Positions 4,478 through 39,215 of a DNA stretch of 39,536 bases are shown here, piece after piece (the first letter of the stretch is position 1; each line of letters starts with the position of its first letter). Made by a program: the position numbers and the translations under genes. This stretch comes from Bacilli bacterium (GTDB taxonomy: Bacteria; Bacillota_I; Bacilli_A; RF39; UBA660), in contig JAFXXB010000022.1 in the NCBI GenBank assembly GCA_017542465.1, forward strand, positions 1-39,536, in the 5' to 3' direction. Under the pieces are notes generated by a model that made no database searches, was not told the DNA's origin, and saw only the letters and a program-made list of their open reading frames with translations.

Positions 4478-6883
4478 TTATATATCTTCTTCTCTTAAAT
4501 AATCTTTAGCTTTATTCTTTAAATCATCTAATGTATAAATCTTAACTGAATAATATTTACTATTATTAGATATTATTACTCTATCATCTTCAAGTTTAGC
4601 TAAACTCTTTATATGACCTACTTTATTATAATCTTTATCAATTATATATGAATCAGATATATCACCTAAATATATTCTTCCATATTTATCTTTACCATAG
4701 TAATGATTAATTTTACCAACTTTATTAAGATATTTTAATAGTTTCTTATCTTTTGTACTATAAATCGCCACATCTTCATTTGTATAATTAACAAATAATA
4801 ATTCTTGATTTGTATCATAGAATACATTATTAACTAAATTCTTACTTCTTAAATCATATTTTTCTTTTACTTTATCTAATTCAGATGGAGTAATTGATTC
4901 ATCTTTAGGATAATCTATTTTAACATCTTCTTCTTTAATATCATCATTAGTTTTAGGTTCATATAATATTATTCTATTCTCATTATTAGGTATTAGTAAA
5001 TAACCATCTTGAGATATAGCAACTTTAATATAACTATCCATATTGAATTCATATTTACCTTTATATTCAATACTATTCTTATATTCCATATTTATATAAT
5101 TAACATGTCCATTCTTTAAGAATACTAAATATATTTCTTTATTCATAAATGAATATAAATCAATTATTTCACTGTCAGTATGGAATGTTTGAATTAAATC
5201 ACCATCTTTAGCATTAAATACACTAATCTTATCATATGATGCAATAGCTATATGATTCTTACCATCTTCATATGATCTATTTAGGTATTTACCCCATACA
5301 TCATCATAACTCTTAGACCAATTAGTTTTATCATTTAAATAATTATATGAAGTAATAATTGTATTATATTTATTCTTATATGAATTATTTACTAAGATAT
5401 ATGCATTATCACCTATAGTCATAATTCCATTCATATATCCAGCTGTGAATGATATCATATTTATTTCTTTTCCATCACTTGTAGATATAACATGAACAGT
5501 CATTGAATCTTTCACATCTAAACTAAAGTTTTCAACTGTAGTACTAGCAAATAAATATTTACTATCATCTGAATAATATAATTCCTTCATATATTTGTCT
5601 GTTGATGTAGTTTTAGTTACTTCTCTATCATCTTTAACACTATAAATGTGTAAGTTATCACCATCAGTATATGATAAGAATTCTCCATTTGAACTACCAC
5701 AAACAGAAATATAAGACCATTTTTCTTTTTCAAATTCTTTAACTACTTTTCCATCACTTGTATTTACTATTACTACATTACCTTTATCATTAATAAATGC
5801 TAGTTTATCATTTCCTATAAATGAGAATATTCTTTCACTACTTACACTACCATTAGCTTTATAATTAGCTATTACATTTAATGTTTTAGAATCAAATAAA
5901 GTGATTTCTTCTGATTCATCATATACAGCAGCATATTTATTATCAGCACTTGATTTAATAAAATCTGCTACACCCTTAGTTTTTATTTCAGTAATAGATT
6001 TATATGATGATCCAACATCATATACACCTAAACTTTCAGATAAAGCATATTCAGCATCAGCTGTATAAGGCATTCTGACACCCTCAAACTCTGTTAATGC
6101 ATAATAAGCGTTTTTAATAGCATCATATCTGTTATCTATTTTTAAGTTTTCAACTGATTCTCTTGCAAGTGATAATGCTTGATGACTTGCTAATATATTT
6201 GCTTGAGTATTAATCTTAATAAACATAGTAAGTGCAAAAATCGCAAATGCTAAACTAGCAAAAGTAACACCTAAAGAAATATTAAGTATTTGTTTTTGCT
6301 TTCTTAATTTATGTCTTTGTTTTAAATCATCATACTCTAAGTTATACATTGGAGCTATTAATCTTAACTTTTCTTCTTTTATTTTCTTTAATACTATTCC
6401 TTTGTTTTCTCCTCTTACATCTGCTGCAAGTGGTTCAACTAAAGTCTTCTCTATTTTTGCTTTTCCATCTTTTGTCTTAACCATTACCTCATCATATAAT
6501 ACTTCTTCTGGGAAAGACTCATCTGGTTCACCTTCAATTAAAACACAAAAGATATTTTTTCTTCCTCTTAATTTCTTAAATGTTTCAATTTCCTTCTTGC
6601 ACCATAAAGAATCTTTTAATCTAGGAGAACAAATAACAATTAAATATTTAGAATCCTTTAAAGCTTCAATAATTGGATCTTCAAGATTACTTGATAAAGG
6701 TAATTCATCTTGATCTCTAAATACTCTCTTAATAGTTCTTCCTTGAATGTTTAATTTCTTTTTTAATGCTTTAGGTAATTCATAAGTTTCTAATACTTTA
6801 TGTAAATTCTCTGCAACATACTTATCTAAATCACAATGTCTATAACTTATAAAAGCATCATATTTATATTCTCTATTTTCCAT
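4478..6883 (-). CDS. TIR-domain, membrane and beta-propeller-like protein
   Basis: An 801-residue protein in three parts. Residues 7 to about 150 form a TIR domain: YDAFISYRH at the first strand, the RVFRDQDELPLS loop, LIVICSPRLKDS, and WCKKEIE with Glu98 where NAD-cleaving TIR domains keep their catalytic glutamate. A single membrane helix lies at about residues 200-223, and a roughly 560-residue extracytoplasmic region has repeated short beta-rich segments (SxDGK, FDSKTLNVI) like a degenerate WD40/propeller. Such TIR-membrane-propeller proteins occur in many Firmicutes, and a sensing or defence role is inference. The ATG at 6881-6883 is favoured over the one at 6907 because GAGGGTGAT lies just before it. 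An extended -10 (TGGTATAAT, about 6910) follows the upstream terminator, so the gene appears monocistronic. Confidence 0.85.
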   Translation of the reverse strand: MENREYKYDAFISYRHCDLDKYVAENLHKVLETYELPKALKKKLNIQGRTIKRVFRDQDELPLSSNLEDPIIEALKDSKYLIVICSPRLKDSLWCKKEIETFKKLRGRKNIFCVLIEGEPDESFPEEVLYDEVMVKTKDGKAKIEKTLVEPLAADVRGENKGIVLKKIKEEKLRLIAPMYNLEYDDLKQRHKLRKQKQILNISLGVTFASLAFAIFALTMFIKINTQANILASHQALSLARESVENLKIDNRYDAIKNAYYALTEFEGVRMPYTADAEYALSESLGVYDVGSSYKSITEIKTKGVADFIKSSADNKYAAVYDESEEITLFDSKTLNVIANYKANGSVSSERIFSFIGNDKLAFINDKGNVVIVNTSDGKVVKEFEKEKWSYISVCGSSNGEFLSYTDGDNLHIYSVKDDREVTKTTSTDKYMKELYYSDDSKYLFASTTVENFSLDVKDSMTVHVISTSDGKEINMISFTAGYMNGIMTIGDNAYILVNNSYKNKYNTIITSYNYLNDKTNWSKSYDDVWGKYLNRSYEDGKNHIAIASYDKISVFNAKDGDLIQTFHTDSEIIDLYSFMNKEIYLVFLKNGHVNYINMEYKNSIEYKGKYEFNMDSYIKVAISQDGYLLIPNNENRIILYEPKTNDDIKEEDVKIDYPKDESITPSELDKVKEKYDLRSKNLVNNVFYDTNQELLFVNYTNEDVAIYSTKDKKLLKYLNKVGKINHYYGKDKYGRIYLGDISDSYIIDKDYNKVGHIKSLAKLEDDRVIISNNSKYYSVKIYTLDDLKNKAKDYLREEDI

Positions 6884-6921
6884 ATTAATCACCCTCAATA
6901 TCACCATTAATTATACCATAT

Positions 6922-7642: not shown

Positions 7643-7669
7643 AAAAAAGATGGATTAATATCCATCTTA
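7643..7669 (-). terminator. Intrinsic terminator of the 896-aa InlB-repeat gene
   Basis: Arms AAGATGGA/TCCATCTT followed by six Ts on the minus strand. The TAA stop at 7667-7669 begins the hairpin. Confidence 0.85.
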
Positions 7670-10357
7670 ATTACTATAATAGTTACCCATCTTTACTTTA
7701 ATATTCTTAAATGTTCCTTTTACAAATCTGAATGGTACTCCTTCTTCATTATAAGTAGCACCAAATGTTAAAGGAGCATCATAAGTAAATGTTGGGTCAA
7801 CATCACTTAAATATTCTAATGGTTCACCATTGAATGAATAATATAACTTATTATTAGCTCTAACTATTCTTACACTTTGTACATCAGGTTCAATTCTAGA
7901 AACTACCGAAGTTCCTTTTCCGCCTTTAATAGAATATGTTATTAAAGGACCTTCATCAAGTCTAAATACAAATCCAGGAACAATATCATTTACATTTACC
8001 AATCCCGACTCATCTTTAGATCCTATCAATGTTTTATGTTTTGAACTATCATCTGGATCATCTAACAATAAGTTATCTATTTCCATATATATTTCGAAGT
8101 CTTTTTCAATGTTTTCTCCATTAAATAGATTTATACCAGTATCAATAAATGTTTTATCTGCATATGCACTACATTCAGCACCAGTCATTTCATTGTATGC
8201 ACCATTAAATGTACATGCACCTAATTGAGAGAATACAACTGGGAATGGATCAGTATCAGACCATCTAGTATATAAAGTCATATCACTTGTTGGAATGTAA
8301 TCATTCTTAATTTCAATTCCACCAGTTAATTCTGTATACCATCCATTAAAATATTTGCCATCTAATGTTGAATTAGGTAAATCATTAATCATTTCACCAG
8401 CATGAACATCAAGTGATGTTGGTGAAACACTTCCTCCATTAGGATTTAATGTAATAGTATATGTAGGATTTAAATATATTTCTTTATAATTAATTCCTTC
8501 GACCACTTCTATTTTATTCTTTAATGTAGTTCTATCTTCAATTTCATCAAATCTACTATAATCTCCAATAGTTGAATTGATACCATTACTTTTACCTAAT
8601 AATACACCATCATACATCTTTAAATTATTTGATGTAGATAAGCCATATGCTTTACCTCTAATATATGGAGTACTATTTGCTACACCATCATTTTTACCTA
8701 TAACTAATACACCAGCATTATTAACACCACTAGATTCTTGAGCAATAATAGTACCATCTTCAATATACATTGTACCTGTTTCAGTATTTTGAACAGCCCC
8801 TCTTTGACTAGTTACATTAGTTAATATTGAGTTTCCTTTAATAGTTAATGTTCCTTCATTATAAACCGCTTGTCTACTACCTGTTCCATTTAAATCAGCA
8901 CCATCGATTATCGCAACAGCATTAGGATAGTTGTTAATAACACCTGCTGGTGCATCACAGTTAAATGTTCCACCAATAATATTTAAAGTTCCATAGTTTT
9001 TAATTGTACTACATGTGTTTTTAGTACATGGATTATTAACAACATAACCTGTTGCATCTAAAACAATATTTCTATTTTCAGGTATAATAATTTGTTCTGA
9101 TACACTCTTAATAATTGTTACCTTTGTTTCATCAGAAGTATCAATAGAATCAAGTGCTTTTTTAATTGATGTAAAGAATTCACCATTTATTTCAGCTACT
9201 GCATCCAATGGTACCCAATTAGCAACATAACTCTTATCACCAGTACTATGAGTTTTAATCTTAACAGACTTACTAGGCTTATTACCATTTGATCCTGTCC
9301 ATCCTCTAAACTCATAATCTTCTTTTGTTGGATTATTTAAAGTGATTGTTTCATCTTCATAAGTATATGTATTAGGATTTAAAGGAGAAACTGTTCCACC
9401 ATCTAAATCGTAAGTTATAGTATAAACAGCAATTAAATACTCACCTTTAATAGACATATTATCATATACTTTTGTATCTGGAAGAACTTCTTCGCCAGCT
9501 TCATCAATCCATCTAACAAATGTATATCCATCTCTTTCTATAGGATCAATTGTTCCAATTACATCACCATATTTATAAATAATAGTTTGAATTATATTAT
9601 TATCATCATCTAAAATATTAATACTATATTCTTCAAATCTACCCTTTACTACAATGTCATTAAAAGAAATAATCATTTCATTTTCTTCAAGTGATCTAGT
9701 GTAATTAATTACAAATGGTATTCCAATTATTATTAAACATAATAGTAATAAACTGCATAATATAATTTTATATTTCTTTTCTAATTTCATTAATAAATAG
9801 ATAATAACAAATAATGCTAAAGTAATAACAAATAGATATATATAAATATTATCACCTGTTGTAGGATTAATAATTATATCATCATCAATAATGATGTCGT
9901 CACCTTTTACTTCTTCTTCAGTAGCATATTTAATAGATATCTTTAAATCTTTAATATCTACACTATCATAATTAATTAACTCATTAGTATATTTTAAAGT
10001 TACAAATATAGATTTAGTTTCTTTAGAATAAAAATAGTTTTCATCATATTCATAAGATATAGAAATGTTAGCATTTGTATTATTATCACTTATAGACTCA
10101 ACCTTATAACCAAAATTATTATTATTTCTAATAACTAATTCGAGAGTTACTGCATCGCCTTTACTGTTAAATGTAATATTACTTGTTATTTCACGAGACG
10201 AGAAAACAGGTTCAACTACATCGATTGTCCCTACTGTTTCCTTGACCTTAACACTATCAACAGTAAAGTCTGCAACGCTAGCATTTACAGTCTTTACACC
10301 TATAATTGATAGTATTAATAATACGATAATTATTAATTTTACGCGTATTTTCGTCAT
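7667..10357 (-). CDS. InlB-repeat, beta-helix and LamG-like surface protein
   Basis: An 896-residue surface protein. In order: signal peptide (1 to about 26); an extracytoplasmic domain shared with the next gene (28-155, containing GTIDVVEP and SSREITSNI); an NPTTGD motif at 164-169; a membrane helix (171-190) followed by KLEKKYK; and a second helix (198-218). Then come two InlB/Flg_new repeats (about 311-382 and 632-699), which flank a right-handed beta-helix-like region (430-600, with YNEGTLTIKGNS turns). A LamG-like C-terminal domain follows (about 735-896). The NPTTGD-helix-basic segment looks like a sortase sorting signal but is internal. Listeria InlB repeats are adhesive, so binding to host or mucus is inference. 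It has its own promoter and terminator and a leader similar to that of its paralogue at 10442-17554. Confidence 0.8.
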   Translation of the reverse strand: MTKIRVKLIIIVLLILSIIGVKTVNASVADFTVDSVKVKETVGTIDVVEPVFSSREITSNITFNSKGDAVTLELVIRNNNNFGYKVESISDNNTNANISISYEYDENYFYSKETKSIFVTLKYTNELINYDSVDIKDLKISIKYATEEEVKGDDIIIDDDIIINPTTGDNIYIYLFVITLALFVIIYLLMKLEKKYKIILCSLLLLCLIIIGIPFVINYTRSLEENEMIISFNDIVVKGRFEEYSINILDDDNNIIQTIIYKYGDVIGTIDPIERDGYTFVRWIDEAGEEVLPDTKVYDNMSIKGEYLIAVYTITYDLDGGTVSPLNPNTYTYEDETITLNNPTKEDYEFRGWTGSNGNKPSKSVKIKTHSTGDKSYVANWVPLDAVAEINGEFFTSIKKALDSIDTSDETKVTIIKSVSEQIIIPENRNIVLDATGYVVNNPCTKNTCSTIKNYGTLNIIGGTFNCDAPAGVINNYPNAVAIIDGADLNGTGSRQAVYNEGTLTIKGNSILTNVTSQRGAVQNTETGTMYIEDGTIIAQESSGVNNAGVLVIGKNDGVANSTPYIRGKAYGLSTSNNLKMYDGVLLGKSNGINSTIGDYSRFDEIEDRTTLKNKIEVVEGINYKEIYLNPTYTITLNPNGGSVSPTSLDVHAGEMINDLPNSTLDGKYFNGWYTELTGGIEIKNDYIPTSDMTLYTRWSDTDPFPVVFSQLGACTFNGAYNEMTGAECSAYADKTFIDTGINLFNGENIEKDFEIYMEIDNLLLDDPDDSSKHKTLIGSKDESGLVNVNDIVPGFVFRLDEGPLITYSIKGGKGTSVVSRIEPDVQSVRIVRANNKLYYSFNGEPLEYLSDVDPTFTYDAPLTFGATYNEEGVPFRFVKGTFKNIKVKMGNYYSN

Positions 10358-10383
10358 ATCTTATTTCCTATCCTATTAAAACA

Positions 10384-10392
10384 ATTATATCA
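10384..10392 (-). promoter_or_regulatory. Extended -10 promoter of the 896-aa gene
   Basis: TGATATAAT, about 27 bp before the ATG and just behind the T-tract of the upstream terminator. The -10 to ATG leader closely resembles that of the 2370-aa gene. Confidence 0.6.
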
Positions 10393-10402
10393 AAAAGGAT
10401 AA

Positions 10403-10440
10403 TAAAAAAAAACAATTATTTTTCAATAACTGTTTTTTTA
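10403..10440 (-). terminator. Intrinsic terminator of the 2370-aa gene
   Basis: A mostly A/U stem (CAGTTATT/AATAATTG with a GAAA loop) followed by nine Ts on the minus strand, immediately after the stop. Confidence 0.7.
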
Positions 10441-10441
10441 A

Positions 10442-13400
10442 TTATTCGATCATATAATCTCTAAAGGCTTGTATTAAATCATCAAGATTTTGTCTTTCTT
10501 GTTGTGTTTGACAATCTTGTACAAACCAACTATATACTCCTCCATCATCATTAATAGAATTATACATATAAACAAATTTTTGATCCTTACTTACACTTGA
10601 ATTAGGATCAGTAGCATAATATCTATGCCTATTAACTAATCCAAAGAAATATGATAATTCATAATCTTCAAGCATATCTTCTTCAGTTACACCTAATAGA
10701 CCTTCAAGTATATATGCTAATGTACCAGTTCTATCAGTACCAATTCTACAATGGAAATATACTTTCTTTCCAGCTATTATATCTTCCATTACTTCTATAA
10801 CTAAATCTCTAGATAATTTATAATTATCATATTGAGTTTGATAATCAATTTGATAATGCTTGATTTCTCTGTGTTTAAATTGATCTGTTGGGAATTGAGC
10901 CTCAGTAGTTGGTATTTCAGAACTCTTTCTTAAATCTATTTCTTCATTAATACCTAACTTAGCTAATTGAGTAACATTATTAGTATCACTATAAAGTCTC
11001 TCACCTCTAAATATTATTCCATATTTAAGAGTTCCATCAACTGTTCCATCACCATCAGTATCAACTTTAAGTCCACCTAAGTCACGTGCATTTCTTACCC
11101 CATTAATATTAAGTGTTCTTCTATTTCCTTCAGCCTTAACTAATCCGTGAACTTGTGGGTCACTATCAAGTTCCCAATAATATGTTTGCCCTGGAATCAT
11201 ATTATATATTACACCATTATCTGATGTAGTATATGTTACAGGACTTCCTTTTTCTTTATTGGCTTCACTTGAATCATAAACATTTATTTGTCCTGTAAAG
11301 CCTGTATCATATCCATTTGGTTTATCACATAGATTTGTGCCAGATGTTGAACATGTGTTTTCATTACACTTACAACCATAATAATTGAAATTTGCATCCA
11401 TATTTGCTTGGAATGTTGATTGATCATTTTTCCAAGTACCAATGCTATTATAATATGCTGTCATAACATCATTAGTCATATTGAAATTATCTATTTCAGT
11501 TGATGCTTCATAATGCCACTTAGCAACATATGTTTCATTACCTTGAGGGATAGTATGCTCATCTACTAATATTCCATCAGTAAGATTTGTATACCATCCA
11601 TCAAAAGTATAAACGCCTCTTGTTGGTGTTGGTAATTGATTACCAATTTCTTGTCCTTTATCAACATGTAATGTATTTGGACTAACTGTTCCACCATTAG
11701 GTTCTAAAGTTACTTTATATGTAGTTGGAGTTAACGAATAATACAATCTATAATAAGTAATAGTGCCTTCAGTAATTGAATCAGTTACTTTGCTTGCTCC
11801 TTCTTCTGTATCTTGAACAGTATCTTCATTCTCAATAGCTGCTTTCTTACCCATAATCATACCATCATATATATTTACATTTCCTTTTATTCCTAGTTGA
11901 TTATTATTTGTTGCATCTGATCCAGATTTAACTTCAATTATATCAGTATCATATATACCATCTTTTTCACCAATATTAACTGTTCCGGATGCATTTAATA
12001 TTGCATTAAAATTCTTAGAATAAATAGTACCACTTAATACAGTTGTTACACCATTATTTAAATTATGAAGCGCAGCTCTATCACCTTTATTTTCAATGTA
12101 TGAATTATCTTTAATAACTACAGTACCACCATTATTATAAACACCTTGTCTACTTCTTGTATTTATAATGCTAGCATTTGAAACATGCAATGTTGAGTTT
12201 GACTGAACATTTACTACACCTTGAGCAATATCACTTGCAATAGTACCATTCTTAATCTCTAAGAATTTAATATTACTATCAATTGCATTTCCAGAAGTAA
12301 CTGTAAATGTTTTATTATTTAAATCTAATATTACATATCTATTTAATTTATTTGAATCTGTTAAATCAATCTTATCAGATGAGAAATCCTTTAATATCTT
12401 TATAGTAGTTTTATCTGCATCAGTTCCAGTTGGATTATTTACAATTGGCACATCAGCAAAAGCAGCTGATAAAGTACTATAAAATGCACCATCTATTTCA
12501 GCGATTGTACCAACAGGAATCCACTTAGCAACAAATGTAACATCACTTGTAATAATAGTTTCTTCAGTTACTTCAGTCGAATAAGTTGAATCAGTATACC
12601 ATCCAGCAAAATCAAAATCAACTTTGCCAGTACTTGGTAATGTACCTATAGCTGTATTCTTAGTTACTTCTATATCTTCAACAGTATCTCCACCTTGTGT
12701 GTCAAAACTTACTACAAATGTATTAGATACTTCATGAACTTTAACATTAACTGTTTTTGTTGTATTAGATATCAATCCAGTTATTGTAATTGTAGTATCA
12801 CCAGCACTTAATGCCATTATAACACCATCAGAATCAACTGAAGCAATAGTACTATCTGTTGATGTGAACTCACGTGGTTCAACCAAATTAATATTGTTAA
12901 TAACAATTCTATCTGATTCACCAACAGATAATATGAAATTGTCTTTTTCTAGAGTCGAATCCTCAACATTAACTGACCATCCAGCGTATAATGTTTCATA
13001 TCCATTTGGAACATATGTTGAATCAATTTGAGTAGTATAATCACTTGATGTGAACCATCCAATAAATTGATGATCAGACTTTGTTGGTGTTGGTAAAGTA
13101 CCTATTGCATCACCTTTATCAATAGCTATTACACTATTTCCTGATAATGTTCCACCATTAGTATTTAATCTAATAATATATTGATCATTTATTAAGTTCA
13201 TTGGAACTTCAATAATAGGTTTAATACAATTATTTGAAGTATTATATTTATCAGATGTTACTTCATCTAATTTTCTTGTATCATTACGATATCTTATTCT
13301 TTTACCATCTGATTCTTGTTCTAACCATGCAGTACTTCTTTCACCTATACCTGAATATAAACTATTTTCAAATAAGAACTCATATCCATTTAATGCACCA

Positions 13401-16400
13401 TCAGTTTTTAGTTCAGAATATGTTTTATTAGTCATATCCTCTATTTCTGATAATCTAATGAATCTAGCAGGTCTATAATCATCAGTTTGTATTTCAAATG
13501 TTACAGGTAAATTACTCCATTGTGTTGTTGTTGGAAGTAATGTTAATGACGTATCATAGTTATAATATACATTTATATCGCTTTGTCCTTTATCACCACT
13601 GAATGTTATATATGATATAAGAACAGCATTATCACCATTATTAGTTACATAATAGAATCTTTGATTATAGCCAGAGCCATCTACATTACAATCAAAAGCA
13701 TCTCCTGGTTTTAACGTATCAGAATCGATTATGTTACCATATTCAATTGTATCACCAGATGAATAACCATTAGCTCTACAACCTTTTCCACTTGCCGAAT
13801 TACATGTTTCAGTATGTAATGTTGTAGATTTAACACATATAGTTCCAATCCACTTAGCAATTAATGTAATATTACCTTCAGGTACATAAGTTGAATCAAC
13901 CTTAATACCATCTGTTAAATTTGTATACCATCCATCAAATGTTTTTCCTGTTTGAGTTGGTGTTGGTAATGTTCCTATAGTATCTCCAATATTTACTGTT
14001 ATCGATGTTGGATTAACACTTCCTCCATTAGCATTTAATGTTACTGTATATACTGAACCCGCTCCATATTCTATTTTGCTCTTTGGTACTTCTATTACAG
14101 GACGGACACCGCCGAAATTCGTATTGTTGGTGCTGCCGTTGCGGATGCTGCGGTAGTAGCCACCTTCATACCAACCGGTGTCAGAGTTAAACGCGTAAGG
14201 CGTTTCTAACCAAGTTCCGGTGTTTCCTATTGTTGATTTTGCGTATCTTGTGTTTTCCATTATATAGTTACAGCTATCTAATTCTCCTGTTGTCTTTCTT
14301 CCTACTTCTGTCAAATTACATCCTGACATTAATTCTTTCGCTGTTAATAGTCTTGCTGCATATCCTTCGTAACTAAAGTCTGTTGGTAGTGTTCCGCCAC
14401 CAGCTACTGTTGGTGAATCATGTGTTGATAGATATTCTGCTAGGATTGCACGTGTATCACTTTTTAAACTAACATTACTCCACTGACTTGTTGTTGGTAA
14501 TTGAGATACTAATGTTCTTGGTCCATGCCAGTTTTCATTACTAGAATCATATGCAAATGTGTTCTTATTACATGATACTCCACTTGTTATATTATTATAA
14601 TATATTAATACTGCTGTACTTGTATCAAATTCTTTTGAAGAAGTATCATAGTAATCACTTACATAATAGAATCTTTCTGTTAATTCATCAAAATCTCCAT
14701 CTCCATTTACATCACATGTAAATGCATCTCCTGAAGTTAATGTTCCACTTGTTCCACAAGATCCATATGTTATTGTACTTGTTCCTTTTGAACCGCTTGT
14801 TGTATATCCTGCACCTGAACAATAATAAGTCTCATCTGTTTGCGAACATGTCTCTTCATGTAGTTTTACTGCTCTTCTACAAACTATTCCATCACCTATT
14901 GTGATGTTTTCGTTATTAGAACATGTATTCTCAGATAATCTTGTTATATTTTCATTATCTGCACATGTTTTTAATTCATCAAATTTAGCATATATTGTTG
15001 TATCTTCCGTTATTGCAGTATTTTCAAAGTCAAATTTAGTTGTATACTGATCAGTTGTATACCAATCATCAAATACATATCCTGTTTTTGTTGGATCAGT
15101 AGTTGGTCTTGTTACTGTACCACCAGAATTAATTGTTTGACTTGGTACTGTTGATCCTCCATCTGTATTAAATGTTACTGTATAAGTATTAATATTATAT
15201 TTAGCGTAAATAGTTGTATCACTTGTTATTATTGTATCAAAATTAAATACTGTACTATATGTGTCATCTGTATACCAGTTATCAAATGTATAACCTGTTT
15301 TTGTTGGATCAGTTGGTTTTGTTATTTTATTTCCATAAATAATTGTTTGATCTGCTACTTCTGATCCTCCATCTGTATTAAATGTTACTGTATATTCTTC
15401 TCTATCATATACATATTCTACTCTAGATTGACCATTTCCATTTATTGTAACTTGTTGTAAGCTTGGTGTCTTAAATCCAGTTCGTGGAATAACTGGTGCT
15501 GATACAGTAGTATCTGTAGTTCCTGTCTCAGTAGCGGTTTCAGTAACATAATCACCATTTAATGTTTCATATTTATGATCAACATAGTAAGTTGTATCAG
15601 TGTTAGCTGTATATAATGGTTCAACACTTACATTACTTGTACCAATAGTTATAGTAGTTTCTTGAGTTGTTGCACCATTTGACCAACCATCAAATGTATA
15701 ACCAGCTCTGTTTATTGCGTTTAATATTACTTGTTCTTCATAATAATATGTTCCAGATTTATCTGCTTCAACATACTCTGGATGGACAATTGTTAATGTA
15801 TATTGATTTCTAGTATATTCATAAGTAATACTTGCTTCTCCATCACCAGTTATTGTTATGTTTTGTTGAGCAGGACTTGTAAATCCTTCTCTTGAAACTA
15901 ATGCTGCTGGAATAGTTGTATCTGTTGTTCCAGTTCCTGGAGCATTTACGGTTTCCCATCCACCATTTAATGTTTCATATTTATGAACTACTAGATATGG
16001 TGTATCAGTATTAGCAGTGTATAATGGTTCAACACTTATATCACTTGTGCCAATTGTTACTGTTATTTCTTGAGTTGTTGCACCATTTGACCAACCATCG
16101 AATGTATAACCAGCTCTAGTCTTTGCATTTAATGTTACTTGTTCTCCATAATAATATGTTCCTGATTTATCTACTTCAACATACTCTGGATGAACAATTG
16201 TTAAATTATACCGATTTCTTAAATATTCATAAGTTATTTCAGTATTTCCAAATCTACTAATTGTTGTAGTTGTTGTTGAAGGAGCAGTAAATCCTTCATA
16301 ATTCTTAACACTTGGAGTAATAACTGCTCCTGTTGTACCAGTTAATTCATCCTTGTCAGATTCTAAATAACTACCATTAATTTGTTGTTGATAATGATAT

Positions 16401-17554
16401 ACAACATATGGTGTATCTGTATTTTCTGTCCATATTGCAAATAATTCTACTGAACCTTCAGTTAATAAATTTTTAATTGCTTGACCATCTGTATAAGAAT
16501 TACCTGTACCAGCAGCAGTTGTATTCCATTCTACAAAATGATATCCAGTATAAGTAAATGCATTAGTAGTTAATGCTTGTTCAACATCATATGTAAATGT
16601 TTGATTGCTCATTGAACCTTCAGCATATTCGTTATTCTTATTGAATGATACTTGATATGTATTGGCTGTATATTTTAATAATACACTTATTGGACCAGTA
16701 ATAATTGTATCTTCAGTTACCTCATTACCATTTTGATCTACATACTTATCAAATACATAACCAGTGATGTCATCATGAGTTAATGCACCTAACTTTTGAC
16801 CATATGTTATTGTTCTTGTTTCAATAACATTACCATCTTTGTCTTTAATTTGTATTTCATAGTCTTCATATTCGCCAACCAATTCAATACTAGTAAATTT
16901 TAATTTTAAAGTAATTTCTTCATTAGCATATGAAGCAATAGGAACAAATACCAATGATAAACATAATATAATTAATCCGCTCTTTATTTTTTTATCCTTA
17001 ACAAAGTAAAGTGAAAGGACAATACCAACAAAAGCAATAACTAACCACATAATATATTTTAAGATTTTATCATTTGTTGTAGGATTGATGATTATATCAT
17101 CACCTTTAATTTCCCCTTCTTCAGAAACTAAAGATAACTTGATAACCAAATCATTTATATCTACTTTATCAACATTCTTTTCTGTTTCTTTATATGTAAA
17201 AGTTATTTTAATATTGGTTGTTTCATTAGGCTGAATATAATCTGTAGAATAATTATAAGTTATAACAAATTTATCATTTGAATTATTATCAGTTATAGAA
17301 TTAATAGCGTACGCTTCAGATTCATTATTTTTAATAGTAACATCAAATGTAACATAGTCATCTTTTTGATTAAACTTAATATTACTTACTACTTCATCAG
17401 ATGATAAAACAGGATCAACTACATCAATTGTTCCACTCTTACTATCAACACTTATATCTTCTACACTAAAGCCATTTGCAGCATATGCATTAGGTATAAA
17501 TAATGCTATAAAAAATATGATTAAAATCAATAATTTCTTGATGTTATTTCTCAT
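10442..17554 (-). CDS. Giant InlB-repeat surface protein with C-terminal tyrosine phosphatase
   Basis: A 2370-residue protein. In order: signal peptide (1-25); N-terminal domain shared with the 896-aa protein (26-150); NPTTND (157-162), membrane helix (167-185) and basic KDKKIKSG; then a second hydrophobic segment (193-210) ending in SYA, like a signal-peptidase site. About nine InlB/Flg_new repeats follow (starting near 300, 448, 584, 720, 790, 1169, 1459, 1613 and 1946) with MucBP-like modules between the early ones. There are two Cys-rich modules, both ending in (V/I)(R/K)PxIEVP (862-1157, 1239-1452), a Big_2-like domain (1532-1607) and a beta-helix-like region (1690-1910). The C-terminus is a Y_phosphatase3-type domain (about 2141-2368) with NARDLGG, DLRKSSE and the P-loop HCRIGTDRTG (2268-2277). 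The domains suggest an adhesin carrying a phosphatase outside the cell, which is inference. Codons for residues 1112-1152 are anomalously GC-rich. Confidence 0.85.
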   Translation of the reverse strand: MRNNIKKLLILIIFFIALFIPNAYAANGFSVEDISVDSKSGTIDVVDPVLSSDEVVSNIKFNQKDDYVTFDVTIKNNESEAYAINSITDNNSNDKFVITYNYSTDYIQPNETTNIKITFTYKETEKNVDKVDINDLVIKLSLVSEEGEIKGDDIIINPTTNDKILKYIMWLVIAFVGIVLSLYFVKDKKIKSGLIILCLSLVFVPIASYANEEITLKLKFTSIELVGEYEDYEIQIKDKDGNVIETRTITYGQKLGALTHDDITGYVFDKYVDQNGNEVTEDTIITGPISVLLKYTANTYQVSFNKNNEYAEGSMSNQTFTYDVEQALTTNAFTYTGYHFVEWNTTAAGTGNSYTDGQAIKNLLTEGSVELFAIWTENTDTPYVVYHYQQQINGSYLESDKDELTGTTGAVITPSVKNYEGFTAPSTTTTTISRFGNTEITYEYLRNRYNLTIVHPEYVEVDKSGTYYYGEQVTLNAKTRAGYTFDGWSNGATTQEITVTIGTSDISVEPLYTANTDTPYLVVHKYETLNGGWETVNAPGTGTTDTTIPAALVSREGFTSPAQQNITITGDGEASITYEYTRNQYTLTIVHPEYVEADKSGTYYYEEQVILNAINRAGYTFDGWSNGATTQETTITIGTSNVSVEPLYTANTDTTYYVDHKYETLNGDYVTETATETGTTDTTVSAPVIPRTGFKTPSLQQVTINGNGQSRVEYVYDREEYTVTFNTDGGSEVADQTIIYGNKITKPTDPTKTGYTFDNWYTDDTYSTVFNFDTIITSDTTIYAKYNINTYTVTFNTDGGSTVPSQTINSGGTVTRPTTDPTKTGYVFDDWYTTDQYTTKFDFENTAITEDTTIYAKFDELKTCADNENITRLSENTCSNNENITIGDGIVCRRAVKLHEETCSQTDETYYCSGAGYTTSGSKGTSTITYGSCGTSGTLTSGDAFTCDVNGDGDFDELTERFYYVSDYYDTSSKEFDTSTAVLIYYNNITSGVSCNKNTFAYDSSNENWHGPRTLVSQLPTTSQWSNVSLKSDTRAILAEYLSTHDSPTVAGGGTLPTDFSYEGYAARLLTAKELMSGCNLTEVGRKTTGELDSCNYIMENTRYAKSTIGNTGTWLETPYAFNSDTGWYEGGYYRSIRNGSTNNTNFGGVRPVIEVPKSKIEYGAGSVYTVTLNANGGSVNPTSITVNIGDTIGTLPTPTQTGKTFDGWYTNLTDGIKVDSTYVPEGNITLIAKWIGTICVKSTTLHTETCNSASGKGCRANGYSSGDTIEYGNIIDSDTLKPGDAFDCNVDGSGYNQRFYYVTNNGDNAVLISYITFSGDKGQSDINVYYNYDTSLTLLPTTTQWSNLPVTFEIQTDDYRPARFIRLSEIEDMTNKTYSELKTDGALNGYEFLFENSLYSGIGERSTAWLEQESDGKRIRYRNDTRKLDEVTSDKYNTSNNCIKPIIEVPMNLINDQYIIRLNTNGGTLSGNSVIAIDKGDAIGTLPTPTKSDHQFIGWFTSSDYTTQIDSTYVPNGYETLYAGWSVNVEDSTLEKDNFILSVGESDRIVINNINLVEPREFTSTDSTIASVDSDGVIMALSAGDTTITITGLISNTTKTVNVKVHEVSNTFVVSFDTQGGDTVEDIEVTKNTAIGTLPSTGKVDFDFAGWYTDSTYSTEVTEETIITSDVTFVAKWIPVGTIAEIDGAFYSTLSAAFADVPIVNNPTGTDADKTTIKILKDFSSDKIDLTDSNKLNRYVILDLNNKTFTVTSGNAIDSNIKFLEIKNGTIASDIAQGVVNVQSNSTLHVSNASIINTRSRQGVYNNGGTVVIKDNSYIENKGDRAALHNLNNGVTTVLSGTIYSKNFNAILNASGTVNIGEKDGIYDTDIIEVKSGSDATNNNQLGIKGNVNIYDGMIMGKKAAIENEDTVQDTEEGASKVTDSITEGTITYYRLYYSLTPTTYKVTLEPNGGTVSPNTLHVDKGQEIGNQLPTPTRGVYTFDGWYTNLTDGILVDEHTIPQGNETYVAKWHYEASTEIDNFNMTNDVMTAYYNSIGTWKNDQSTFQANMDANFNYYGCKCNENTCSTSGTNLCDKPNGYDTGFTGQINVYDSSEANKEKGSPVTYTTSDNGVIYNMIPGQTYYWELDSDPQVHGLVKAEGNRRTLNINGVRNARDLGGLKVDTDGDGTVDGTLKYGIIFRGERLYSDTNNVTQLAKLGINEEIDLRKSSEIPTTEAQFPTDQFKHREIKHYQIDYQTQYDNYKLSRDLVIEVMEDIIAGKKVYFHCRIGTDRTGTLAYILEGLLGVTEEDMLEDYELSYFFGLVNRHRYYATDPNSSVSKDQKFVYMYNSINDDGGVYSWFVQDCQTQQERQNLDDLIQAFRDYMIE
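14101..14220 (-). other. GC-rich patch inside the giant surface gene
   Basis: About 54% G+C over 120 bp (65 of 120 counted), against roughly 28-30% elsewhere. It encodes residues 1112-1152, the end of the first Cys-rich module, with codons such as CGC, GGC, AAC, ACC and ATC that neighbouring regions rarely use. Confidence 0.85.
15404..15811 (-). repeat. 408-bp tandem repeat, copy 2
   Basis: The second copy of a 136-codon unit in the giant surface gene, covering an InlB-like and a MucBP-like module (residues 582-717). It is highly similar to copy 1 at DNA level, for example 15733-15800 against 16141-16208. Confidence 0.8.
15812..16219 (-). repeat. 408-bp tandem repeat, copy 1
   Basis: The first copy of the 136-codon unit (residues 446-581), directly adjacent to copy 2. 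Confidence 0.8.
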
Positions 17555-27068: not shown

Positions 27069-27094
27069 AAAAAAAGAAGAATTACTTCTTCTTT
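27069..27094 (-). terminator. Intrinsic terminator of lepB
   Basis: Arms AAGAAG/CTTCTT around ATTA, followed by seven Ts. The lepB TAA stop lies in the loop-stem region. Confidence 0.8.
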
Positions 27095-27747
27095 TCTATA
27101 TTTCCAAATTTACTAAATGGTAATAATCTTACTTCTGTAATACCTTTTATTTGTTTTGATTTAACTGCACCAATATCACGAGAGTCAAATGATACCTTAC
27201 GGTTATCACCCATTACAAAGTATTCATCTTCACCAAGTGTTATACCTTCAGTACATAATTTAAAATCTCTATGACATGTATAATTCTTATATTCATCTGC
27301 CACGAATTCTTCTTCTATTTTTCTACCATCAACATATAAAGCATTTTTTATTTGTCCATTTTCTTCATACACATCATACTTTATAGTTTCACCAGGCATA
27401 CCAATTACTCTTTTAATAATAGTCCCTGAATTAGATTTAATAACAACTATATCAAATCTATTAATACCTTTAACATTTCTTTTTAATTTATATAATAATA
27501 AGATATTCCCAGGTTCCAAGGTTGGTTCCATAGAATTTTGTTGTACCCTAACTGGTGATGCAATAAATATTCTTATAATGATTATAAAAGCAATTAGAAT
27601 TAAGAAAGGTACATTTTCCATAAAGATATCTAACTTAGCTCTATTAGTTACTCTCTTAACTTCTTCAGGATCTTTTTCTTTCTTTTCTTCTTTTACTTCT
27701 ATTATTTCTTTTTCTTCCTTAACATTCTTTTTCTTTCTCTTAGCCAT
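27082..27747 (-). CDS. lepB: Signal peptidase I
   Basis: A 221-residue type I signal peptidase that removes signal peptides from exported proteins at the outer face of the membrane. After a Lys/Glu-rich cytoplasmic head (1-40) comes one membrane helix (about 45-63). The catalytic domain has NSMEPTL (Ser72), IIKRVIGMPGE (Lys112) and YFVMGDNR...DSR boxes. A short insert with two cysteines (YTCHRDFKLC) sits before the GDN box. The ATG at 27745-27747 is preceded by GGTGATTAAC. It lies directly downstream of rplS but has its own extended -10 promoter. rbgA, its usual partner, is missing here and found at the left edge. Confidence 0.95.
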   Translation of the reverse strand: MAKRKKKNVKEEKEIIEVKEEKKEKDPEEVKRVTNRAKLDIFMENVPFLILIAFIIIIRIFIASPVRVQQNSMEPTLEPGNILLLYKLKRNVKGINRFDIVVIKSNSGTIIKRVIGMPGETIKYDVYEENGQIKNALYVDGRKIEEEFVADEYKNYTCHRDFKLCTEGITLGEDEYFVMGDNRKVSFDSRDIGAVKSKQIKGITEVRLLPFSKFGNIEKKK

Positions 27748-27763
27748 GTTAATCACCAAGACA

Positions 27764-34498: not shown

Positions 34499-36142
34499 AT
34501 GAATTATGCACTTGTATTTAGAATTAATTCAACATCTATAACAATAAGTAAGACTACTAGATCTATTGATAAAAAAGGAATCAATAATACAAACATTATT
34601 AATACAAAAGAATTAAAATTTGATCCTGAATATATTGTTGAAAACATAGAACTTGTAGCAACTTTCTTAAATGTTATTATTATTAAAAATAATATAAATA
34701 CTTGTATTATAAATACAAATGAATATATACCTACTCTTGTAGAGTTAACTAATAACTGGGAAAAAATAAACAATCTCATAATAAAAGAAGATGTACAAAT
34801 AACATATGATATATTTATGAAGTTATTAGATAATAATTATTTAACAAACCTTGAATGTTATTCAATACCTTGTTACTTAATGGAAATGTTAGATAAGAAT
34901 AAAAATATTAAAATACATACTAGAGAAAAGAAACAATATACAACTAGATTCATGCAAGACAATTTCTTAAACTCATATTCAGAAATGTTCTATAAGAAAA
35001 CTATAATAATTACATCAGCATTTGATGAACTAGCTTTATATGATTTTAAAAACTTTATAGCAATTAATAAAGGTCTAAAAACTATACGCATAGTTAATTT
35101 CTCTAGTGAGGCTTTAACATCAGTTATGGATGTTTTAAAAGAATATAAGAAAAAGAAAATAGAAATAATTATAGATGAAAAAAATAATGATTTAGATTTT
35201 ATATATAAATCTATTCCATTTGTAAAAAAGACTTATAAAAACTACATAAATGAATGTGGAATTAAATTTAAAATTAAATATTCTCTTGAATATAAAAAGA
35301 ATAACTTCATAAAGGAGATAAATGTTAAAACATTATCCGCCATTATATTAATAATTATATTATTAGTATTAGGTTGTATGGGATTAAATGCATATAAAGA
35401 AGCAAGAGATCAAAATAAAGTTGAAGAACAAATGGATGAAATTCAACAAATACTAGATAATTATACAATTACCGATAATAATAAAGATAATCCTGACACA
35501 CCAATAGATGGTAATGAAGGAGAAGAACAACAACAAGCTGCACCAAGAAGAACTGGTGGTTCACCTGGAACATACTACACTAATTACTCAAGAGTAGTAA
35601 CTGACCTATTAACAATCAATCCTGATACTGTAGGATGGATAAAAGTAAATAATACAAGAATGGATTATCCTGTAGTTCAAGGAACAAACAATGATTATTA
35701 TTTAAATAGAGATTTTAAGAAAAAGAAAAACTCTATGGGTTGGATATTCATGGATTATAGAAATAATAAAGATAACTTGGATAAGAACACAATTATATAT
35801 GGACATAATATAAAAGGTGGAATTATGTTTGGTGGTATAACAAATATGTTCTCAAATTATTATTTATCTAAAGAAGAAAACAATTATATAACATTTAATA
35901 CTAAAGATAAAAACATGAGATGGAGAATCTTCTCTATGTACAAGATAAATGAAACATCAGATTATACCCAAACAGAATTTGAATCAGATGAAGAATATCA
36001 AAACTTTATTAATATGATTCAATCAAGAAGTCAGTATAGATTTGATGTATCTGTTACACCAAATGATAAGATAATAACATTATCAACATGCTTCTCAAGT
36101 AAAACTAGAAGCGTTGTCCATGCAGTATTGGTTAATGAATAA
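34499..36142 (+). CDS. Class B-like sortase with large N-terminal domain
   Basis: A 547-residue protein. Residues 1 to about 272 form a probable cytoplasmic domain of unknown type (alternating beta and alpha, basic near its end); I know of no sortase family with such a part. A membrane helix (about 278-298, LSAIILIIILLVLG) and a linker with an Asn/Asp/Gln-rich stretch follow. The sortase domain (about 365-547) reads DTVGWIKVNNTRMDYPVVQ, IYGHNIKGGIMFGG (His436), TLSTCFSSKTRS (Cys531, Arg537), so the catalytic triad is complete. Class B sortases recognise NP(Q/K)TN-type signals. It is the only plus-strand protein gene here and converges with the adhesin operon. Confidence 0.8.
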   Translation: MNYALVFRINSTSITISKTTRSIDKKGINNTNIINTKELKFDPEYIVENIELVATFLNVIIIKNNINTCIINTNEYIPTLVELTNNWEKINNLIIKEDVQITYDIFMKLLDNNYLTNLECYSIPCYLMEMLDKNKNIKIHTREKKQYTTRFMQDNFLNSYSEMFYKKTIIITSAFDELALYDFKNFIAINKGLKTIRIVNFSSEALTSVMDVLKEYKKKKIEIIIDEKNNDLDFIYKSIPFVKKTYKNYINECGIKFKIKYSLEYKKNNFIKEINVKTLSAIILIIILLVLGCMGLNAYKEARDQNKVEEQMDEIQQILDNYTITDNNKDNPDTPIDGNEGEEQQQAAPRRTGGSPGTYYTNYSRVVTDLLTINPDTVGWIKVNNTRMDYPVVQGTNNDYYLNRDFKKKKNSMGWIFMDYRNNKDNLDKNTIIYGHNIKGGIMFGGITNMFSNYYLSKEENNYITFNTKDKNMRWRIFSMYKINETSDYTQTEFESDEEYQNFINMIQSRSQYRFDVSVTPNDKIITLSTCFSSKTRSVVHAVLVNE

Positions 36143-36174
36143 AAAAAGAGATGTTAAACATCTCTTTTATTTTA
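36141..36174. terminator. Bidirectional terminator between the two sortase loci
   Basis: Arms AAAGAGATGTT/AACATCTCTTT with T-tracts on both strands, serving the plus-strand sortase and the minus-strand membrane protein gene. Confidence 0.85.
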
Positions 36175-36894
36175 TAATAATGAATTCTTTAATCTAGGCA
36201 TTTCAATTTCTTCTTCCTCTTCAAACACTTTTGTATTAACTGTAATTAAAGAAGAACTTTCTTGAATTGCTGGAATTCTTATTTCTTCAACTTGTAAAAC
36301 ATTATGTTCTACAACCTTTTTACTATTTACTCTATTTATTAATAATACATCTACTTTATATATAGCAAGTGATATTAACCACGCTACAAATAAAGCTATA
36401 GCTGCTTCATTCAAACTCATTAGAGTTGGATCAGTAAATACTGAGAATTCATTAAAACTAATATTCATTGTATTTATATTTTCAATTATACATAAGAATA
36501 TAAATGAAATTATAACTGGTATTATTACATTTATAATTTTAACTATTGTATTTTCTTTCTTATTTAATAATGTAATACCCATGATAATAAATGAAATAAT
36601 CATTGTTATCATAAATTCTAATGTTGTTGGAAAGAATATAAATTCCATCAACTTAGTAGATACATTATCAATAAATACAAATAATGTGTCTACATAATTA
36701 ATACTATAAAATACCAATACAACAATACTAGCTAATGAAGAAACTAATTTGATTAATCTCTTATTAATGAACTTACTAAATACTAATGATATTACTAGTA
36801 TAGCTAATTCAAATAAGATTAATACAAATACGTTTGAATGACTCATAGCTGTAACTGTATTTTTAATAATTTGTAATAATGATAATTCTCTCAT
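36172..36894 (-). CDS. Multi-pass membrane protein of the adhesin operon
   Basis: A 240-residue protein with about six hydrophobic segments (about 22-40, 47-66, 92-110, 118-142, 160-185) and a 50-residue cytoplasmic tail with acidic FEEEEEIEMPRL. I recognise no family. It follows the small sortase by 11 bp and is the last gene of the operon, so it may help assembly or placement of the adhesin, by context only. Ribosome binding site GGAAGTGATAT. Confidence 0.6.
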   Translation of the reverse strand: MRELSLLQIIKNTVTAMSHSNVFVLILFELAILVISLVFSKFINKRLIKLVSSLASIVVLVFYSINYVDTLFVFIDNVSTKLMEFIFFPTTLEFMITMIISFIIMGITLLNKKENTIVKIINVIIPVIISFIFLCIIENINTMNISFNEFSVFTDPTLMSLNEAAIALFVAWLISLAIYKVDVLLINRVNSKKVVEHNVLQVEEIRIPAIQESSSLITVNTKVFEEEEEIEMPRLKNSLL

Positions 36895-36905
36895 AATATC
36901 ACTTC

Positions 36906-37547
36906 CTATCCTGCATTATTAATGCTTTCTAGTTCAAATACAAATACTACTTGTAAATGATTATCAGTTCTATGACATGTAATTAATGTTAATGTAGTTT
37001 TTGATGCATCCCTTTTAACTGTAATAGTACCAACCTTAGGAACATCATATCTTGTCTTTAATACATAATTATATAACTTACCATTATAAGTTACGTATGC
37101 ATGTGCGCCATCGTTAAGTTTATATAAATCATTAAAGAACGATACTTTTGAATGTCCATTGTGGGCAGCTAATATAAGATTACCCTTATCTACATCTGGC
37201 ATTGTTGAGCCTTGAACTAACAATACATTATACTTTAATGAGTTATAAGGTGAATCTAATGATGTGAACCCTCTTTTAATATTTACATCAGGAACACTTA
37301 AATAACCTATATAACCATCAGTACTTGGAGTAACGGTCGGTTCTTGTTCTGGAACATCTGGATCAGTGTCCACTGTTTCTAGTTCTTCAGGTAGAACTAT
37401 ATTTTGTTCAAATAACTCTATATTCTTTTCGTTAAATAGATTTGATTTAATTCCTCCAAAATAATTGAATGTAATTAAAATAATACCTATTATAATGAAA
37501 AGAATACTAAGGGTTATCTTAGCATTCTTTTGTAGTCTTAATGACAT
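36906..37547 (-). CDS. Small sortase of the adhesin operon
   Basis: A 213-residue sortase, a membrane-bound transpeptidase that attaches surface proteins. N-terminal membrane helix (about 10-30), a Pro/Asp/Glu-rich spacer, then the catalytic barrel with YIGYLSVPDVNIKRG, LILAAHNGHSK (His129) and LTLITCHRTD (Cys191). Where the catalytic Arg is normally found (N-x-L-R-V-V) this protein has Gln199 (NHLQVVF). The nearby Arg193 may not replace it, so either this belongs to a subfamily with another arrangement or its activity is reduced. The start chosen is the ATG at 37545-37547, overlapping the adhesin gene by 29 bp. Sortase class is uncertain (class D-like). Confidence 0.75.
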   Translation of the reverse strand: MSLRLQKNAKITLSILFIIIGIILITFNYFGGIKSNLFNEKNIELFEQNIVLPEELETVDTDPDVPEQEPTVTPSTDGYIGYLSVPDVNIKRGFTSLDSPYNSLKYNVLLVQGSTMPDVDKGNLILAAHNGHSKVSFFNDLYKLNDGAHAYVTYNGKLYNYVLKTRYDVPKVGTITVKRDASKTTLTLITCHRTDNHLQVVFVFELESINNAG

Positions 37548-39159
37548 AAGCCACACCAGAAATTAATAATGTAATACCTGCAATTGTTAAAATGATTGTT
37601 GATTTACCAGTACTTGGTACAGGTACATCTTCATGTTTTTCAGGTGAATTATAGAATTCTACCATTACACTATCTTCAAAAACCCCATTACTATTCTTAA
37701 CTTGTAAAGAACCATTATCCAATACCTTGAATACTAATATTTCATTACTTATAACATAACCAGCAGGTGCAGCTTTTTCTTCTAATGTGTAAGTACCAGC
37801 ATCTAATGTTAATTGATATACTGAATTACTTGAGATAAATTCCTTAACTACCTTACCGTTAGAATCCTTAATAACCATTGTAGCACCAGCTAAATAATTA
37901 CCATTTGTAGAATCCTTCTTAGCTATAGAAGTTACATCTTTTAATTCATTAATCATATTAATCTTATTTACTGTAACCCATTTACCATTTACTTTTGCAT
38001 AAAGCTTTAAGTCAGCATCAATCTTGAAGTAAATAGTTGTAGTACTTAATTTATATCCTTCTGGAGCAATAGTTTCAGTTAAACTATATTCTCCTTCTTC
38101 TAATGTTATTTTATGTGTTTCATTTGTTGAAACCCATTTATCAACTTGTTTTCCTTTTGCATCCTTTAATACTAAAGTAGCTCCTGGAATTTCTTTTGAT
38201 TGAGTAACATCAGTTTTACTAATATTTATTTCTTTCTTTTCAATATAATTTTTAACAGTTAAAGATATTGAAGCTTCAACTGGCTTAGTTATTACTTCTA
38301 ACTTATCATATAATAATCTTTGATGAGAATCATTAGTATAGTAATAATAAGCTTTCTCTTGAGTATATCCTCCTGAGAATTTAATACTGAAAGTAACTTT
38401 CTTACCTTCTGGAATATCTGATACTGGAATCTTAACTACATATCCACCATCAGCAGCATCCTTGTAAATCTTAGTGTTCTTAGTGGCATTAACTAATGTC
38501 ATTTTCATGTCTCCACTTAAGTTACCAGATTTAACATAAATCTTGCTAGATGTATAATATCCATCTGCTTCAGTAAATGTTACTGAATTTGTTGTTATGT
38601 TGATATAACCATTCTTTTCAACATAATCTTTTCTATAATTATATGCACCTACATATAATTTATAGATTTCCTTAGATACTGCTTTTGTAGTAGCATCTAA
38701 AGTAGTGTTATCAACTTTTGCACCAATAACTATTATTTTCTTGAAATCACTAGGTAAGTTATTATCGTTACCATTTATGTAATCCATATAGTAATAGATA
38801 GCCATTTGTGTGATGTAGAAATCTTTATGAGCATCCCCTGTATGAGGTCTGTTCTTTAAGATATAGTTGATACCTACATCCATCTCTTTAGTCTTTGTAT
38901 ATGTCATATTTCCATCATATTTCTTATGTAGATCAATACAATATACAAATGTTCCGTCAGCTGCTTTCTTAGCAATTAATGCATAATCATCAGTATTACC
39001 ATTTGTAGTCTTATAATTAATATAAGCTAACTTAGTTCTGTCATCAGCATTAGTTACGAATGTAGATGGTAAAATAGTATCGGCATTAGCCTTAATAATA
39101 CCACCAAATAGGAACATTGCTAAGATTGCCATAATAGTAGCAAATCTAAACTTCTTCAT
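37519..39159 (-). CDS. Thioester-domain/SpaA-like surface adhesin
   Basis: A 546-residue surface protein. Signal peptide (1 to about 27), then a thioester (TQXA) domain: FVYCID (Cys74) and ITQMAIYYY (Gln118) supply the residues of an internal Cys-Gln thioester used for covalent host attachment in Gram-positive adhesins. Two SpaA/Cna-B-like modules follow (about 308-380 and 410-480), with ISKTD/AKKDS lysines and YSLTETIAPEGY and YTLEEKAAPAGY glutamates that form isopeptide bonds. The C-terminus is VPSTG (514-518), a membrane helix and KTTKEC: a sorting signal with Val for Leu. The ATG at 39157-39159 follows AAAGGA. Two promoters lie upstream, and the operon continues with a sortase and a membrane protein. 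Confidence 0.85.
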   Translation of the reverse strand: MKKFRFATIMAILAMFLFGGIIKANADTILPSTFVTNADDRTKLAYINYKTTNGNTDDYALIAKKAADGTFVYCIDLHKKYDGNMTYTKTKEMDVGINYILKNRPHTGDAHKDFYITQMAIYYYMDYINGNDNNLPSDFKKIIVIGAKVDNTTLDATTKAVSKEIYKLYVGAYNYRKDYVEKNGYINITTNSVTFTEADGYYTSSKIYVKSGNLSGDMKMTLVNATKNTKIYKDAADGGYVVKIPVSDIPEGKKVTFSIKFSGGYTQEKAYYYYTNDSHQRLLYDKLEVITKPVEASISLTVKNYIEKKEINISKTDVTQSKEIPGATLVLKDAKGKQVDKWVSTNETHKITLEEGEYSLTETIAPEGYKLSTTTIYFKIDADLKLYAKVNGKWVTVNKINMINELKDVTSIAKKDSTNGNYLAGATMVIKDSNGKVVKEFISSNSVYQLTLDAGTYTLEEKAAPAGYVISNEILVFKVLDNGSLQVKNSNGVFEDSVMVEFYNSPEKHEDVPVPSTGKSTIILTIAGITLLISGVAYVIKTTKEC

Positions 39160-39186
39160 AATCCTTTCCCCCTCGAATTGCGTATT

Positions 39187-39215
39187 ATTATACTGCAAGA
39201 ATGGTATAATTGCAA
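39187..39215 (-). promoter_or_regulatory. Proximal promoter of the adhesin operon
   Basis: TTGCAA (39210-39215), a 17-bp spacer and TATAAT (39187-39192), 28 bp before the ATG. Confidence 0.75.

Follow-up and report, generated by a model that had tools for sequence, protein, structure and literature searches.

Sortase anchoring is taught as a C-terminal process, and its well-known exception is the streptococcal IgA1 and Zmp proteases. In the M26 IgA1 proteases, sortase A is described as recognising an N-terminal LPXTG, and a cut is reported 56 residues behind it (PMC9637739, which cites Bender and Weiser 2006); ZmpB, ZmpC and ZmpD likewise carry an N-terminal LPXTG (PMC7939560). These proteases, in which N-terminal anchoring has already been described, are the closest known system to two proteins encoded on contig JAFXXB010000022.1 (assembly GCA_017542465.1) of a Bacilli bacterium of the UBA660 lineage, the whole 39,536 nucleotides of which are called the window here. 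We computed the architecture of these proteins, the conservation of two predicted cut sites and of a strand behind the second, and the presence of the enzymes. From this we infer that they are probably anchor-cargo polyproteins, which would be cut twice, with the anchor linked to the cell wall and the cargo retained by strand complementation.

As in the M26/Zmp proteases of streptococci and Gemella, a sorting motif lies near the N-terminus and a giant secreted part follows it. A second cut is reported about 56 residues behind the motif in the proteases and is predicted here at a median of 47 residues (interquartile range 46-49) from the motif Thr. In contrast to them, the motif here is NPxT, of class B type, rather than LPXTG. 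The cargo is also swapped freely within one bacterial family, the motif comes after an immunoglobulin (Ig)-like domain, and there is a conserved strand behind the second site. As no M26 peptidase or G5 domain was found among the Pfam matches of the window proteins and of 77 cargos, the proteins are not members of the M26/Zmp group. A literature search, largely confined to papers outside subscription, returned nothing on a class B or modular version of such anchoring or on retention of a cargo by a strand.

Both open reading frames (ORFs), with all the features given below, are on the reverse strand of the window. The giant protein (2370 residues; 10442-17554), with Pfam InlB/List-Bact repeats and a tyrosine phosphatase, starts with signal peptide 1 (residues 1-25; 17480-17554), whose -1 Ala is conserved in the alignment. 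An Ig-like (PapD/MSP-like) anchor domain (residues 26-146; 17117-17479) is predicted next by an AlphaFold2 (AF2) model and its structural matches, with a predicted local distance difference test (pLDDT) score of mostly 66-89 in this block. The internal class B-type sorting motif NPTTND (residues 157-162; 17069-17086), recognised by profile and alignment, is followed by membrane helix 1 (residues 163-186; 16997-17068), the basic turn KDKKIK and membrane helix 2 (residues 193-210; 16925-16978). Helix 2 resembles an internal signal peptide, with a predicted cut after ASYA, the Ala of which is residue 210 (16925-16927). The cargo (residues 211-2370; 10445-16924) would have as its new N-terminus the conserved strand NEEITLKLKFTSIELVG (residues 211-227; 16874-16924), and it carries the tyrosine-phosphatase family domain (PF13350, 3.8e-22) in its C-terminal part (10643-11110).

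The second protein (896 residues; 7667-10357), also with Pfam InlB/List-Bact repeats, has the same order of signal peptide, domain of about 120-130 residues, NPxT, helix, lysine-rich turn, helix 2 and large extracellular-type part. Its Ig-like anchor domain (9908-10276, from the alignment) leads to the internal motif NPTTGD (residues 164-169; 9851-9868), membrane helix 1 (9779-9850) with the basic LEKKYK behind it, membrane helix 2 (9701-9760) and a post-hairpin strand region, SLEENEMIISFNDIVVKGRFE (9632-9694), placed by alignment. An earlier reading of this DNA, made from the letters alone and called the sequence-only reading here, had described the signal peptide, domain, NPTTGD or NPTTND, helix and basic stretch, and both ORFs were confirmed with this order. 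The second hydrophobic segment that it described is also present in both proteins. Its likeness to a fresh signal peptide holds for the giant protein and does not extend to the 896-residue paralogue, in which INYTRS follows helix 2 and a good AxA site is absent.

The conservation of the first site was followed in 78 homologues read from retrieved genome stretches (65 clusters at 50% identity), 31 of which had not been used in building the search profile. NPxT is present in 70 of the 78, another xPxT in five (SPxT in two, VPxT in two, GPxT in one) and none in three, while the 31 held-out homologues comprise 28 with NPxT, two with VPxT and one with SPxT. In an alignment of 43 rows with 22% mean column identity, P158 and T160 never vary; conservation of at least 90% is otherwise seen at A25, D66, N76, N157 and A210 alone. 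A25 is the first signal-peptide Ala, D66 and N76 belong to the Ig-like domain, and A210 is the end of helix 2. The predicted cut sites are therefore among the most conserved residues of the module, which lends comparative support to the earlier proposal that a single chain would be cut by sortase and signal peptidase.

A sorting profile built solely from 13 C-terminal signals of relatives gave 22 bits on each of the internal segments of the window, and up to 37 bits within the family. At least 12 bits were reached by 25 of 47 family internal segments, whereas among 191 control membrane segments just one exceeded 10 bits; the family segments below 12 bits mostly belong to another subtype (NPPTGV and similar), to which this profile is poorly suited. 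A control helix scoring 21 bits, in the protein at window 36172-36894 (FPTTLEF...), was judged to be a chance match. Curated NCBIfam sortase-target models also match internal segments (EF0750_LPXTG at 8e-7 on the giant protein, Rumino_NPXTG and srtB_target on others), and ordinary and internal signals have the loose pattern NPxTxD in common, with the fifth position free and D frequent at the sixth. The NPxT-type motif, hydrophobic helix and basic residues of ordinary class B substrates are all present, as judged by the profile. Whereas those substrates have their signal at the C-terminus, both window proteins and the full-length, cargo-bearing homologues have it within the chain, and a second helix and a large extracellular part come after it. 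By homology, the internal segments are sorting signals, as the sequence-only reading had suspected when it placed a class B-type signal near the N-terminus.

The genome of the window (G000) is a 1.09-Mb draft with four anchor-cargo proteins. The C-terminal profile found six clear NPxT signals in it (E <1e-3), four of them internal and two C-terminal, the latter in proteins of 433 residues (NPKTND) and 145 residues (NPTTGD). The 145-residue protein (L201, 1504-1941; G000:C43) is a conventional substrate, with NPTTGD, a helix and RKKKDK at its end, and it is the clearest small C-terminal class B substrate of this genome.

The second site was scored in 47 family members. By rule, a signal-peptidase-like site ends helix 2 in 40 of the 47 (about 44 by eye), and the same rule accepts 10 of 47 first helices, 35 of 211 other helices taken as controls, and 43 of 45 true N-terminal signal peptides. 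By alignment column, the helix-2 Ala is kept in 70 of 78 homologues. Because the automatic finder misplaced a few cuts (e.g. in G000c12, L079 and L127), three separate counts (by rule, by column and by eye) are kept here. A Pro five residues upstream of this Ala is also among the best-conserved columns, and helix 2 weakly matches the signal peptide and strand of three standalone proteins (5.5e-5 to 1.6e-3).

Candidates for both enzymes are encoded in the window. The class B-like sortase noticed earlier (34499-36142, forward strand) is above the cut-off of TIGR03064 with 187 bits, has a long N-terminal extension and is the likely first enzyme; the likely second is a signal peptidase I (27082-27759, reverse strand; TIGR02227). 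A class B sortase of this genome is also recorded at G000:C24. In the window SrtB, about 270 residues precede the helix at 278-296, and many relatives likewise have SrtB open frames of about 520-570 residues, along with ordinary ones of about 250 residues.

Four genomes (G147, G408, G378 and G146) can be regarded as natural experiments, although such cases are few and the genomes are drafts. In G147, a 214-residue homologue ends just behind the hairpin with the strand-like EEKVVINATLDYNY. This copy has lost the cargo, the NPxT and the Ala site and retains a terminal strand, which we count in favour of the anchor-cargo reading; a search of this genome for SrtB at E 1e-3 was negative, and so was one for NPxT signals. 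Homologues that have lost the motif and kept the hydrophobic helices, which the sequence-only reading had named as evidence that would tell against it, do exist. They are rare, making up 3 of the 78, and include this copy, in a genome without detectable SrtB and with its cargo lost too. In G408, VPKT replaces NPxT in both copies, the conventional signal reads VPNTG, and the SrtB is divergent (107 bits, below the cut-off).

Two further proteins were seen in these last two genomes. In G147 (L218, 4492-5637), a fused chain of 381 residues has a signal peptide, a helical domain and two helices ahead of its sortase part, and in G408 (L212, 6278-7415) a similar helical protein of 174 residues, with a C-terminal helix, is encoded by its own gene immediately upstream of the sortase. 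The G147 fusion looks like another joining of a small membrane protein to the next exported protein.

Profile searches of 60, 291, 385 and 245 genomes confined the full-length homologues to one taxonomic family. Beyond this family, a phylum-wide search turned up no full-length homologue, a scan of named genomes with the N-terminus of the giant protein gave no matches, and no relative by sequence was found in the PDB. The scan with the G006-type alignment gave three loci, in Bacilli bacterium Tb.RUG.273 and in an uncultured Bacillales metagenome-assembled genome. Within the family the cargos are unrelated to one another (6% mean column identity). Pfam matches in 77 cargos include InlB repeats, DUF285, leucine-rich repeats, tyrosine phosphatase, DUF6273, GLUG and CBM26, and as PF13350 is common to 5 of the 77, a surface phosphatase is a recurrent cargo. 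A C-terminal helix was seen in only 1 of 82 ORFs, which is a conventional substrate, leaving the cargos with no C-terminal anchor of their own.

The sequence-only reading had looked to standalone genes in which the shared domain is followed by a terminal NPxT and a helix. None was found among the genes read, and the domain-only relatives are proteins of 165-200 residues with an N-terminal helix and no sorting signal. At L097 and L098, runs of such proteins carry the same Ig-like domain, with a GYAALSTTLNINGQSTI-like N-terminal stretch behind the helix; by analogy, they resemble subunits that polymerise by strand exchange, like TasA. Matches across a stop codon in G291 and G209, considered as split genes, were rejected, as these are ordinary substrates with a C-terminal NPQTGV followed by another secreted protein.

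Directly behind the second site, an alternating stretch is found, for example LKKIEIKIDSKVEIE and IEEIQIKVNSTVTIN in homologues, at the position held by NEEITLKLKFTSIELVG in the giant protein. Its columns are ungapped, and four positions on one face are hydrophobic in 97, 99, 82 and 79%. The beta moment is 0.75, compared with 0.37 in the rest of the cargo, 0.42 after shuffling, 0.47 in 86 other mature N-termini and 0.40 in the anchor's own N-terminus, and a fixed strand pattern fits 61% of post-cut N-termini and 0% of other mature N-termini. As this strand is conserved while the cargos that follow it are unrelated, it belongs to the anchor module, even though it lies on the cargo.

AF2 models were made for the first 300 residues of the giant protein and for a complete homologue of 434 residues (L222). 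Both have a beta-sandwich, a helix hairpin and then a strand (E213-220 in the giant protein, E199-212 in L222), and their structural matches are Ig-like domains of the PapD, MSP and HYDIN type. Among the matches listed for the giant protein, 50 of 50 start at residues 20-44 and end at 224-231; among those listed for L222, 49 of 50 end at 210-216. Since only about 100-120 residues are aligned, the matches must pass over the hairpin and finish on the strand behind the cut. For the HYDIN PapD-like domain 2e6j (112 residues), 111 residues were aligned with Z 9.3 and a root-mean-square deviation of 2.7, although Z values of 8-10 are modest and a common fold says nothing on function. In these models, the first 16 or so residues of the cargo appear to be the last strand of the N-terminal Ig-like domain.

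These features can be arranged into a putative mechanism. Signal peptide 1 would initiate export, with the Ig-like domain emerging outside; helix 1, behind NPxT, would halt transfer with its lysines remaining inside; and helix 2 would resume export up to its signal-peptidase site, so that the cargo also goes outside. A sortase, most likely SrtB, would cleave after the Thr of NPxT and link the Ig-like domain to the cell wall, while signal peptidase I would cleave after the helix-2 Ala, typically 46-50 residues further on, and free the N-terminus of the cargo, leaving the membrane hairpin behind. The Ig-like domain would then be without its last strand, which the first 16 or so residues of the cargo could supply. 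The cargo would thereby be fixed to the wall by its N-terminus via a nicked Ig-like domain, with its C-terminus free.

The steps differ in their likelihood. A sortase cut at NPxT is likely to occur, and a signal-peptidase cut after helix 2 of the giant protein is equally so. In the 896-residue paralogue the second cut is improbable; there, a sortase cut alone is well supported, and helix 2 may tether the cargo. Retention of the cargo by the strand has an even or slightly better than even chance. A wider generalisation, with its chances a little below even, is a display system in which a hairpin with sortase and signal-peptidase sites sits in the last loop of an Ig-like domain. Its excision would nick the domain, of which one part would stay covalently wall-bound while the last strand became the N-terminus of any cargo. 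A single module could then display unrelated giant proteins by their N-termini with no covalent link.

The sequence-only reading had favoured complete separation, in which sortase anchors the Ig-like domain and signal peptidase frees the cargo as a secreted protein, giving two products of linked stoichiometry. Conservation of both sites would be expected in this case, and the cargos, some of which hold enzyme domains, are without a C-terminal anchor. However, the post-cut strand is conserved independently of the cargo and is modelled into the anchor domain, and the cargo-less copy in G147 still has it. We therefore consider release unlikely; the products are probably not parted, because the first strand of the cargo appears to complete the Ig fold of the anchor. 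The strand would also complete this fold within a single chain, as in an uncut two-helix membrane protein whose hairpin anchors the Ig-like domain and the cargo, both outside, with the NPxT and Ala site as relics or structural features. The cuts are themselves deduced from sequence, and the G146 proteins, which are without NPxT, and the 896-residue protein, without the Ala site, seem viable uncut or half-cut. However, if these sites were relics, N-P-T and the -1 Ala would not rank with the best-conserved positions of a module at 22% mean identity, and the signal-peptidase site is on helix 2, not on helix 1, so an uncut protein has a similarly small chance. A single cut, either by sortase with helix 2 holding the cargo in the membrane or by signal peptidase with helix 1 holding the Ig-like domain, would suit the 896-residue paralogue, in which NPxT is present without the Ala site, and the G146 pair, in which the reverse holds. 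As both sites are kept in most homologues, we regard it as more doubtful still.

Several findings also weigh against double cutting followed by retention. The second cut is hard to place in the 896-residue protein (INYTRS) and in G000c12 (TIIGS), neither of which has a good Ala site, and in G146 two tandem copies have lost NPxT but not the hairpin or the Ala site, although their genome has SrtB. In G378, the motif is SPKTGD and SrtB was not detected in a draft that is 91% complete; as C. difficile SrtB anchors SPKTG proteins (PMC5569036), S at the first position of the motif is not alien to class B. SrtB is present in 18 of the 18 genomes with internal-type proteins in the 291-genome set, a co-occurrence that is weak evidence because about 85% of the family's genomes carry SrtB regardless. 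The AF2 models rest on 8 sequences, have a mean pLDDT of 61-63 and were read through the residue ranges of their matches, and the pLDDT of the strand block is just 62 in the giant protein (84 in the homologue). The modelled chains were also uncut, so a strand behind the hairpin lies nearby by construction.

An anchor and cargo that are cut apart and held together by a strand would have partial parallels elsewhere. Type 1 pili, TasA and archaeal threads are established cases of donor-strand complementation (PMC9715654), in which, much as is proposed here, an incomplete Ig-like domain is completed by the N-terminal strand of another chain. The difference is that acceptor and donor would here come from one chain, parted by excision of the hairpin, and would form two partners and no polymer. 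On Gram-positive surfaces, the Ig-like domain of the WxL-interacting protein holds a partner non-covalently (PMC10599100). The WxL and WxL-interacting (DUF916-DUF3324) proteins resemble the module in a fold match (9i1y, at a likewise modest Z 9.0) and in the match of the internal signal to EF0750_LPXTG, whereas anchor and partner are encoded by separate genes in WxL loci. Neither DUF916 nor DUF3324 was among the Pfam matches of 43 modules at E 0.01.

Two other loci of the window were recorded. At 36906-39198, a second, class C/D-like sortase (36906-37556) adjoins a thioester/SpaA protein ending in PSTGK, which by its sequence features is a small locus of pilus-like or adhesin type, served by a sortase of its own. 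At 4478-6907, one chain combines a TIR domain with a membrane segment and a WD40-like beta-propeller, and the predicted product could be a defence or signalling protein.

To summarise, display of giant proteins by their N-terminus, with anchor and cargo made as one chain, would be an unusual route to the cell surface in these gut-type bacteria. The internal sorting signal is a reusable module that, within a single family of Bacilli with small genomes, accompanies dozens of unrelated cargos. Pipelines that search C-termini only would overlook the majority of class B substrates in these organisms, as with four of the six in the genome of the window. The nicked Ig fold, possibly a new way of holding a cargo, offers a testable idea for how the cargo could be retained.

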